From contig JANXOF010000044.1 of NCBI GenBank assembly GCA_025353725.1, forward strand, positions 62,001 to 126,000: DNA of 64,000 bases. Reading direction: 5' to 3'. Made by a program: the position numbers and the translations under genes. Of this stretch, positions 28,298 to 38,942 are shown piece after piece (the stretch's first letter is position 1; every line of letters starts with the position of its first letter). The notes under the pieces were generated by a model, which was given only the letters and a program-made list of their open reading frames with translations, was not told the origin of the DNA and made no database searches. Origin of the DNA: Polyangiaceae bacterium (GTDB lineage: Bacteria > Myxococcota_A > Polyangia > Polyangiales > Polyangiaceae).

Positions 28298-28474
28298 GCG
28301 GCTCTGGGGCGCGGCTGGCTTCTGGGCGCGTAGGAGCAGCATCGACTCTGCAGCCCGCTCGACCCACGCAGCGCACGGCCTGGGGACCCACGAAGTGGGG
28401 CGGCCGTGCCTCAACAAGTCCGCCCATCGCCAGACAGCGACCGCGCCCAGAAGCCAGCCGCGCCCCAGAGCCGC
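28298..28474. repeat. Structured dispersed element, copy A (177 nt)
   Basis: Perfect 33-nt inverted terminal arms (28298-28330 and 28442-28474) enclose a 37-nt hairpin (28373-28409: outer stem GCACGGCC/GGCCGTGC, internal loop TGGGGA opposite GC, inner stem CCCAC/GTGGG, GAA loop). The 5' arm is followed by TAGGAGCAG. A second copy with the same layout but different stem sequences is at 38765-38942. It carries no convincing gene; a minus-strand frame across it follows from the palindrome. It may act as RNA or as a DNA hairpin or mobile-element end. Confidence 0.85.
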
Positions 28475-35213: not shown

Positions 35214-36905
<1,692 letters not shown>

Positions 36906-36931
36906 TTACTTAGTCGGGGATCGTCGAAAAT

Positions 36932-37222
36932 TTACTTGGTGAAGACCGCGAGAACGTCGTCTTCGCGGAGGAGAACGAGGTCTTCGCCTTCAACCTTGAC
37001 CTCGGTGCCCGTGTACTTGCCGAAGAGGACGCGGTCGCCCGCTTTCACGTCGAGCGCCACGACCTTGCCATTCTTGAGGATAGTGCCGGAGCCCACCGCG
37101 ACGACGATGCCCTCGAGGGGCTTCTCTTTGGCGGTGTCGGGAATGATGATTCCTCCCTTGGTCTTCTCCTCTTCCACGGTGCGCTTTACGACAAGACGGT
37201 CAGACAGGGGACGGATCTTCAT
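36932..37222 (-). CDS. groS: Co-chaperonin GroES
   Basis: GroES caps the GroEL chamber. ATG 37222 gives [20 protein letters not shown], then a mobile loop ([16 protein letters not shown]) and the beta-barrel end ([20 protein letters not shown]). At 96 residues it is normal length. It precedes groL and lies just downstream of a CIRCE operator and a TTGACG/TACCTT promoter on the minus strand. Confidence 0.97.
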
Positions 37223-37260
37223 GGTTCGCTTCGCTCTTTCGAAAAACGTTGGCTGGGCTG

Positions 37261-37287
37261 CTAGCACTCGCCTGACACGAGTGCCAG
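37261..37287. promoter_or_regulatory. CIRCE operator (HrcA-binding inverted repeat)
   Basis: CTAGCACTC, nine bases, GAGTGCCAG: nearly the consensus TTAGCACTC-N9-GAGTGCTAA. It lies between the minus-strand promoter and groS, so groSL is expected to be repressed by HrcA and induced by heat. No hrcA is in the window. Confidence 0.93.
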
Positions 37288-37298
37288 ACGGTGGCGGC

Positions 37299-37326
37299 AA
37301 GGTAGGCGTTCGGCCCGCGACGTCAA
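37299..37326 (-). promoter_or_regulatory. Sigma-70-type promoter of groSL
   Basis: On the minus strand, TTGACG (37321-37326), 16 bases, TACCTT (37299-37304). Placing it just upstream of CIRCE puts the operator at the start of transcription, as in other groES genes. Confidence 0.65.
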
Positions 37327-37445
37327 GCCCCCTTGCGCTCCTCTTCGGGCCAAAGCGACGTGAACGAGAACGCGTCGGCGACGTTGAGAGATTCCGTGAC
37401 GACGATCGACCTTCGAGTTTCAACGAGACACGCGTGCACGCGTGC

Positions 37446-37582: not shown

Positions 37583-37653
37583 TGGGGGATCGTCTAATGG
37601 CAGGACGACGGATTCTGGCTCCGTCTATCTAGGTTCGAATCCTAGTCTCCCAG
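37583..37653 (+). tRNA. tRNA-Gln (anticodon CTG)
   Basis: Acceptor stem TGGGGGA/TCTCCCA (one G-T pair), D loop AATGGCA, anticodon stem ACGGA/TCCGT around TTCTGGC (anticodon CTG, codon CAG), T loop TTCGAAT. Discriminator G; CCA not encoded. Confidence 0.95.
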
Positions 37654-37721: not shown

Positions 37722-37793
37722 GGCCCCATCGTCTAGCGGTTAGGACACCGGCTTCTCACGTCGGGAACACGGGTTCAATTCCCGTTGGGGTCA
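37722..37793 (+). tRNA. tRNA-Glu (anticodon CTC)
   Basis: Acceptor stem GGCCCCA/TGGGGTC, anticodon stem CCGGC/GTCGG around TTCTCAC (anticodon CTC, codon GAG), T loop TTCAATT. Discriminator A. It follows tRNA-Gln by 68 bases, in the same direction, and a terminator follows it. Confidence 0.95.
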
Positions 37794-38658: not shown

Positions 38659-38764
38659 CCGAAGGCGGCTCAGTTCAACAGGTTCAGCCGCTCCTCGTTC
38701 TCACCCTTCGCCCTCACCTCCCCTTCGCCCTCACCTCACCCACGATCGCGTCGCAGATCGACAA

Positions 38765-38942
38765 GCGGCTTCGGGGCGCGGGGCTCTTCCATCCGCGTAG
38801 GAGCAGGGCTGCCCTCCCACATCGCATAATGCAAGCAGGGCGCCGCCTGGGGACCCGCACCGCGGGGCGGCGGCGCCACGCCACCCCCCACAGACCACTC
38901 AACGCGACCCGCGGACGGAAGCGCCCCGTGCCCCGAAGCCGC
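38765..38942. repeat. Structured dispersed element, copy B (178 nt)
   Basis: Same plan as copy A (28298-28474): 33-nt terminal arms (38765-38797 and 38910-38942) pairing at 31 of 33 positions including one G-T, TAGGAGCAG after the 5' arm, and an inner hairpin (38839-38877: outer stem GGCGCCGCC/GGCGGCGCC, internal loop TGGGGA opposite GC, inner stem CCCGC/GCGGG, ACC loop). Distances between parts match copy A to within one base. Stem bases differ from copy A but pairing is kept. It fills most of the gap between two genes that converge. Confidence 0.85.

Follow-up and report, generated by a model that had tools for sequence, protein, structure and literature searches.

Retron-like dispersed elements without a reverse transcriptase and with strongly covarying stems in one genus of Polyangiaceae

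Why does a long inverted repeat occur twice in one stretch of a bacterial genome, with its pairing kept and its sequence changed? In the window (the whole stretch of 64,000 nt analyzed), a scan for inverted repeats 22 nt or longer and separated by up to 400 nt yields four pairs. Two of these are overlapping palindromes and the other two are the elements called here copy A and copy B, which have a common architecture, 33-nt arms enclosing a loop that contains an inner hairpin in two parts. Their features are as follows (the GAGC and GCG motifs are placed from an alignment of 24 copies, with the positions of the GAGC in copy B counted off the sequence).

38765..38942, + strand: copy B, whole element, defined by its arms and inner hairpin (128.4 bits with the covariance model R3, a score that is not independent, copy B being among the copies used to build R3)
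38765..38797, + strand: copy B, 5′ arm, a1-like, pairing with 38910–38942
38801..38804, + strand: copy B, GAGC shortly past the 5′ arm
38839..38877, + strand: copy B, two-part inner hairpin, GGCGCCGCC-TGGGGA-CCCGC-ACC-GCGGG-GC-GGCGGCGCC, from the sequence, with helices 2 and 3 covarying
38904..38906, + strand: copy B, GCG shortly ahead of the 3′ arm
38910..38942, + strand: copy B, 3′ arm, a2-like, 112 nt from the 5′ arm
28298..28474, + strand: copy A, whole element, with arms at 28298–28330 and 28442–28474
28334..28337, + strand: copy A, GAGC past the 5′ arm
28373..28409, + strand: copy A, two-part inner hairpin, from the sequence, with covarying helices
38975..40024, − strand: right-hand neighbor of copy B, a convergent ORF of 349 aa, from the ORF list (context, outside the element)

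In copy A, the arms pair at all 33 positions, with 111 nt between them. In copy B, they pair at 31 of 33, as the sequence-only reading had counted (30 Watson–Crick pairs and one G-U, the remainder being one A-C and one other mismatch). The same reading had noted that the arm sequences change between the copies, and 10 of the 33 bases of the 5′ arms do differ when counted by eye. The inner hairpin, read off the sequence, changes from GCACGGCC/GGCCGTGC in copy A to GGCGCCGCC/GGCGGCGCC in copy B, and CCCAC/GTGGG becomes CCCGC/GCGGG, both as described there. Two further statements stand in part: the internal loop TGGGGA/GC is unchanged between copies A and B but varies across the family (TGGGGA is found in copies A, B, and C, and in G63a and G64a after an extra T, with a different loop, e.g., TGGGGC, in other copies), and the near-constant spacing applies to copies A to C but not to the family, whose members range from 177 to 267 nt.

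An Rfam scan of the window finds only three tRNAs above the gathering thresholds; at E ≤ 10, there is no match for copy A and one sub-threshold, chance-level match for copy B. With a consensus scan, one promoter-like site (on the minus strand) is found near copy A and none near copy B. Two tRNA genes (37583–37653 and 37722–37793) lie about 1–1.2 kb upstream of copy B, beside ORFs at 35214–37423 that we take to be groES/groEL-like. Separately, the window contains at 38704–38737 an exact 17-nt tandem duplication of CCCTTCGCCCTCACCTC, 27 nt upstream of copy B.

The sequence-only reading had proposed a search for more copies in the same genome (6.6 Mb in 98 contigs, 97.55% complete), and there are three besides A and B, five in all. 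A third full copy came from a DNA search together with a pattern search, and a covariance model built from three copies (R1) gave two further ones, plus copies in related genomes. A 16-copy model (R2) served to search 183 genomes from the order and 317 from the class. With strict filters, it finds copies in five genomes, all members of the window's genus, and no convincing copy outside that genus among the 317 class genomes. A laxer R2 search of 12 genus members plus G042, 13 genomes in all, brings up weak matches in G059 and G062 as well; on reading, these are genuine, having arms, NAGC, and GCG alike, and 7 of the 12 searched genomes of the genus carry the element. Since this lax search reveals that the large strict scans miss diverged copies, absence elsewhere is provisional. 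One additional copy, in G054, was recovered by blast comparison (85.6% identical to its neighbor), and a third model (R3), run over fetched loci, gave two more in G062, each of 267 nt and arranged in tandem. The total of 27 comprises the 24 aligned copies, the degenerate G63e, and the G062 tandem pair, with partial copies in addition. We found no description of the family in a search of the open-access literature, with subscription papers largely outside its scope.

Some candidates were discarded. A match of R1 in G042, outside the genus (E 0.01, 104 nt), is reported neither by R2 (E ≤ 0.01) nor by R3 (E ≤ 0.05). A pattern scan of genome contigs returned 83 stretches from unrelated phyla, in which R3 gave a single match (L051, E 0.048), taken as chance. 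In a search for half-elements by the 5′ motif, only known copies are returned with zero to two mismatches; one match with three mismatches led to the locus of the G062 tandem pair.

The stem changes had been interpreted at the outset as a sign of selection on structure, with the suggestion that further copies be aligned and covariation tested. In an alignment of 22 copies (sequence-based, with the structure taken from the same alignment), 95.0% of 922 stem cells pair, and 37 of the 42 pairs are changed on both sides, against a shuffled mean of 17.6 (none of 500 shuffles as high). The covariation score is 0.522, against 0.150 for shuffled alignments (again 0/500 as high) and at most 0.099 with a slid partner; because the copies are related, the shuffle counts are not probabilities. 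An alignment of 16 copies has 95.0% paired, 33 of 48 pairs changed on both sides, and a score of 0.434. G63e is left out of all pair counts and alignments, as are the two 267-nt G062 copies and the partial copies from all alignments; G59a and G62a belong to the 24-copy alignment and stand outside the 22-copy covariation and arm-mismatch counts.

The strand that folds can be read from the mismatches in the arms. The closing inverted repeat, of the a1/a2 type, is 32–35 nt long in most copies, with 96.9% of its cells paired in the 22 copies. Pairing the two arms of each element, at hand-set arm lengths of 32, 33, or 35, gives 680 Watson–Crick cells, 29 G-U, 4 A-C, and 22 others. The excess of G-U over A-C has a binomial p = 1.1e-5, for copies that are not independent; over the full structure, in 16 copies, the ratio is 28 to 9. 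Template switching can keep inverted repeats perfect in the absence of selection, but it predicts equal numbers of G-U and A-C, so that 29 versus 4 means selection for folding of the + strand. This strand keeps its fold while its sequence drifts, and both the covariation far above controls and the wobble bias in the arms bear out the original interpretation. The wobble bias on the + strand fits a folded RNA as well as a folded single-stranded DNA.

Which positions are kept while the helices change? Across the 24 aligned copies, the columns without any variation are AGC past the 5′ arm, GCG ahead of the 3′ arm, and two single Gs within helices; outside the long helices, AGC and GCG are the sole invariant positions (24/24). 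Between the 5′ arm and AGC there are 3–6 nt, and the base preceding AGC is G in 20 copies, T in three, and A in one, giving GAGC, TAGC, and AAGC. In one consensus fold, the GC of AGC pairs with the GC of GCG; in another, both are open. The central two-part hairpin, with its covarying helices 2 and 3, is present in the place of the long msd hairpin of retrons. In the msr-like part, no conserved hairpins of 7–10 bp are predicted, and the folds of single copies differ.

This arrangement resembles that of retrons. According to a review (PMC6868368), retrons have msr and msd placed between the arms a1 and a2, arms of 8–30 nt, and a priming motif at or beside the inner end of the a1 stem, usually TAGC, with GAGC for Mx65. 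Like the msr-msd units of myxobacteria (Mx65, Mx162, Sa163, Ne144), the elements have inverted arms and an inner hairpin, and the NAGC is likewise at the inner end of the 5′ arm. The elements differ in having no reverse transcriptase (RT) nearby or in the cassette, arms of 32–35 nt (longer than the range given in the review), no conserved msr hairpins predicted, and several dispersed copies; they are also known from sequence alone. A closer likeness is with Retron-Nex1 (Ne160), for which the same review mentions msr-msd repeats, several and duplicated, that have no RT less than a kilobase away, in a host that is the myxobacterium Nannocystis exedens by the title of the paper cited there (PMC6868368). 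The likeness, in several msr-msd-like units without an RT, is to that description and not to the Nex1 sequence, and for the present family the model gives no copy outside one genus among 317 class genomes, a set that perhaps does not include Nannocystis.

We read the family as dispersed, retron-like elements without an RT, not as proven retrons, and we lean, tentatively and with somewhat less than even confidence, toward a working of the retron msr-msd type. In each element, one strand folds: a closing stem, in most copies about 32–35 bp long, leads to a small internal loop, conserved with NAGC on the 5′ side and GCG on the 3′ side, and the central two-part hairpin is inside. The transcript would work as a retron msr-msd RNA, with the arms serving as a1/a2, the G of NAGC as the 2′-OH primer, and the sequence as far as the 3′ arm as template for a small branched DNA. 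As the elements have no RT, one encoded elsewhere would act in trans, or else the copies would be relics that still fold; the same RT activity could account for the spread of the copies. A stronger form, in which each genome keeps under selection several dispersed RT-less retron RNAs and a distant RT serves them in trans or spreads them, one enzyme thereby making many small DNAs, is doubtful. In favor of an msr-msd working are the covariation, the NAGC past the 5′ arm, the repeats of Retron-Nex1, the occurrence of retron-type RTs only among the element-bearing genomes of the genus, the partial and tandem copies, and the regions beside presumed orthologs that have no element by R3. Against it are the element contigs without an RT, the lack of a retron type among the RT matches of the window's genome, the RNA that the retron RTs seem to have of their own, the long arms, the lack of predicted conserved msr hairpins and of an Rfam match, and the lack of a + strand promoter-like site near copies A and B.

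The same data can be read as a new structured non-coding RNA family unrelated to retrons, mobile or amplified in one genus, with the AGC/GCG loop as a protein-binding or tertiary motif. This is a real possibility, if an appreciably smaller one than an even chance. The covariation and the + strand wobble bias agree with it, as do the lack of any Rfam match, the restriction to one genus among 317 class genomes (under strict filters), the element contigs without an RT, and the lack of a retron type among the RT matches of the window's genome. Against it, the NAGC, by its place past the arm and with G or T as its usual first base, closely fits the retron priming site as given in the review, and RT-less msr-msd repeats are on record for Retron-Nex1. 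A retron is usually described as a single RNA beside a single enzyme. If the retron-like reading is true, selected units without an RT revive the old idea of retrotransposition of bacterial retrons, or mean that retron enzymes serve several RNAs; if the elements are not retron-derived, they form a structured RNA family absent from Rfam with very strong covariation.

Is there an RT that could act on them? In 12 genomes of the genus, there are 15 RVT_1 matches, none on an element-bearing contig (several contigs are only 6–20 kb). PADLOC assigns five RTs to retrons. Four are related to one another and of type RT_other/RT_outgroup, in G054, G058, G063, and G064 (49%–74% identical to the first), and one is of type XIII, in G058. 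For the other RTs scanned, no retron family is the best match. Retron-type RTs occur in four of the seven element-bearing genomes of the genus and in none of the five others, a difference that is not significant (one-sided Fisher 0.07, computed by hand, for genomes that are related). A tighter association, 4/5 versus 0/7 genomes, was weakened once G059 and G062 proved to bear elements. The window's genome has five copies, but its RVT_1 matches include no retron-type RT by PADLOC, and the profile of the four related retron RTs has no match there at E ≤ 1e-20. The RVT_1 matches of this genome comprise one DGR/UG-like RT, a broken RT in two pieces, and a Drt5 RT; in our reading, those other than Drt5 look DGR-like and group-II-like. 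The broken one, split in two frames with a stop (contig C63, L095 and L096), is presumably group-II-like, with an adjacent ORF that we take to be integrase-like. The Drt5 is a defense RT on contig C11 (L097).

An inverted repeat directly upstream of the RT is the usual layout of a retron. The regions upstream of the four RT_outgroup-type RTs (L184, L185, L187, L188) align over a common sequence with short arms, which suggests that they would hold a canonical-looking RNA of their own, distinct from the dispersed family (the RT proteins are stop-to-stop translations, whose first residues include upstream sequence). In G058, a 24-nt inverted repeat, 96% complementary, is present directly upstream of the type XIII retron RT (L186:8324–8569). 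No full copy of the element is found by R2, unfiltered, over 72 kb around the five retron-type RTs, by R2 over six RT loci of other genera, or by R3 over 41 RT loci. The best match at an RT locus lies within the type XIII retron RNA region (G058:C129, L186:8427–8502; E 0.00058 with R2, 0.0021 with R3). It has no core, and the opposite strand also matches (E 0.0026 and 0.022), so that we regard it as a GC-rich hairpin matching by chance; alternatively, it could be faint support for the retron reading. In retrons, the RT mostly requires its own msr, with some exceptions, according to the review (PMC6868368). It is because of this requirement, the separate RNA at the retron RTs, and the element contigs without an RT that we name the family retron-like and not retron.

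On comparison of related genomes, copies appear and disappear from one to the next. At the G64c site, the flanking blocks are 45 nt apart in G063, 15 nt in G062, and about 655 nt in G064, where the extra DNA consists of the element and about 460 nt with an ORF; because this stretch also differs, the exact boundaries of the element are unproved there. With blast and R3, no element is found in nine regions beside presumed orthologs of three element-flanking genes (those of G64c in G063, G058, G062, and G000; of G64a in G063, G054, and G060; of G63a in G064 and G058), orthology meaning here DNA similarity, with the left side also matching only for G64c versus G063 and G062. In G064 and G063, elements of different subtypes stand at the same gene end, at different base positions (G64b at L131 and G63d at L120). 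The closest core is within the same genome for 17 of 22 copies, and the five G058 copies have cores 90%–93% identical.

Small intergenic palindromes with a patchy distribution beside gene ends are known as ERIC, REP, or MITE elements, and the present elements are alike in these respects. They could be palindromic DNA of the MITE or REP type, recognized as a folded single strand by a transposase acting in trans. Shortness, dispersal, and the patchy occurrence, with absence beside presumed orthologous genes, agree with this, as does the convergent orientation of the nearest right-hand ORF in 17 of 22 copies (with a crude ORF caller), and folded single-stranded DNA would tolerate G-T wobble too. 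But there are no fixed end sequences, arm identity averaging 66% between genomes and 70% within, no target-site duplication is seen by eye in the flanks, and terminal repeats that a transposase recognizes would not usually keep their pairing so strongly through drift. Unlike ERIC, REP, or MITE elements, the family has stem covariation, an invariant internal loop, and few copies per genome. We consider a DNA element of this type unlikely. Different copies have no flanks in common apart from those of neighboring copies, one same-gene pair, and two matches of 24–30 nt.

The position at gene ends raises another reading, a bidirectional terminator or a 3′-UTR stabilizer for convergent neighbor genes. 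The neighbor ORF of copy B ends 32 nt past the 3′ arm, 13 of 22 copies have the end of a convergent ORF no more than 115 nt from their 3′ arm, and in G64b the stop codon of the gene is inside the 3′ arm of the element. A consensus scan finds no terminator-like site around copies A and B, however, an invariant internal loop is needless for a terminator, and the wobble bias is on the + strand, not the strand read by the right-hand gene. Such a role is highly improbable.

In several genomes, partial or tandem copies adjoin full ones. The G062 tandem pair (L149:664–1252) consists of two head-to-tail copies of 267 nt with the same arms and, by eye, more related sequence seems to follow the pair on the other strand.
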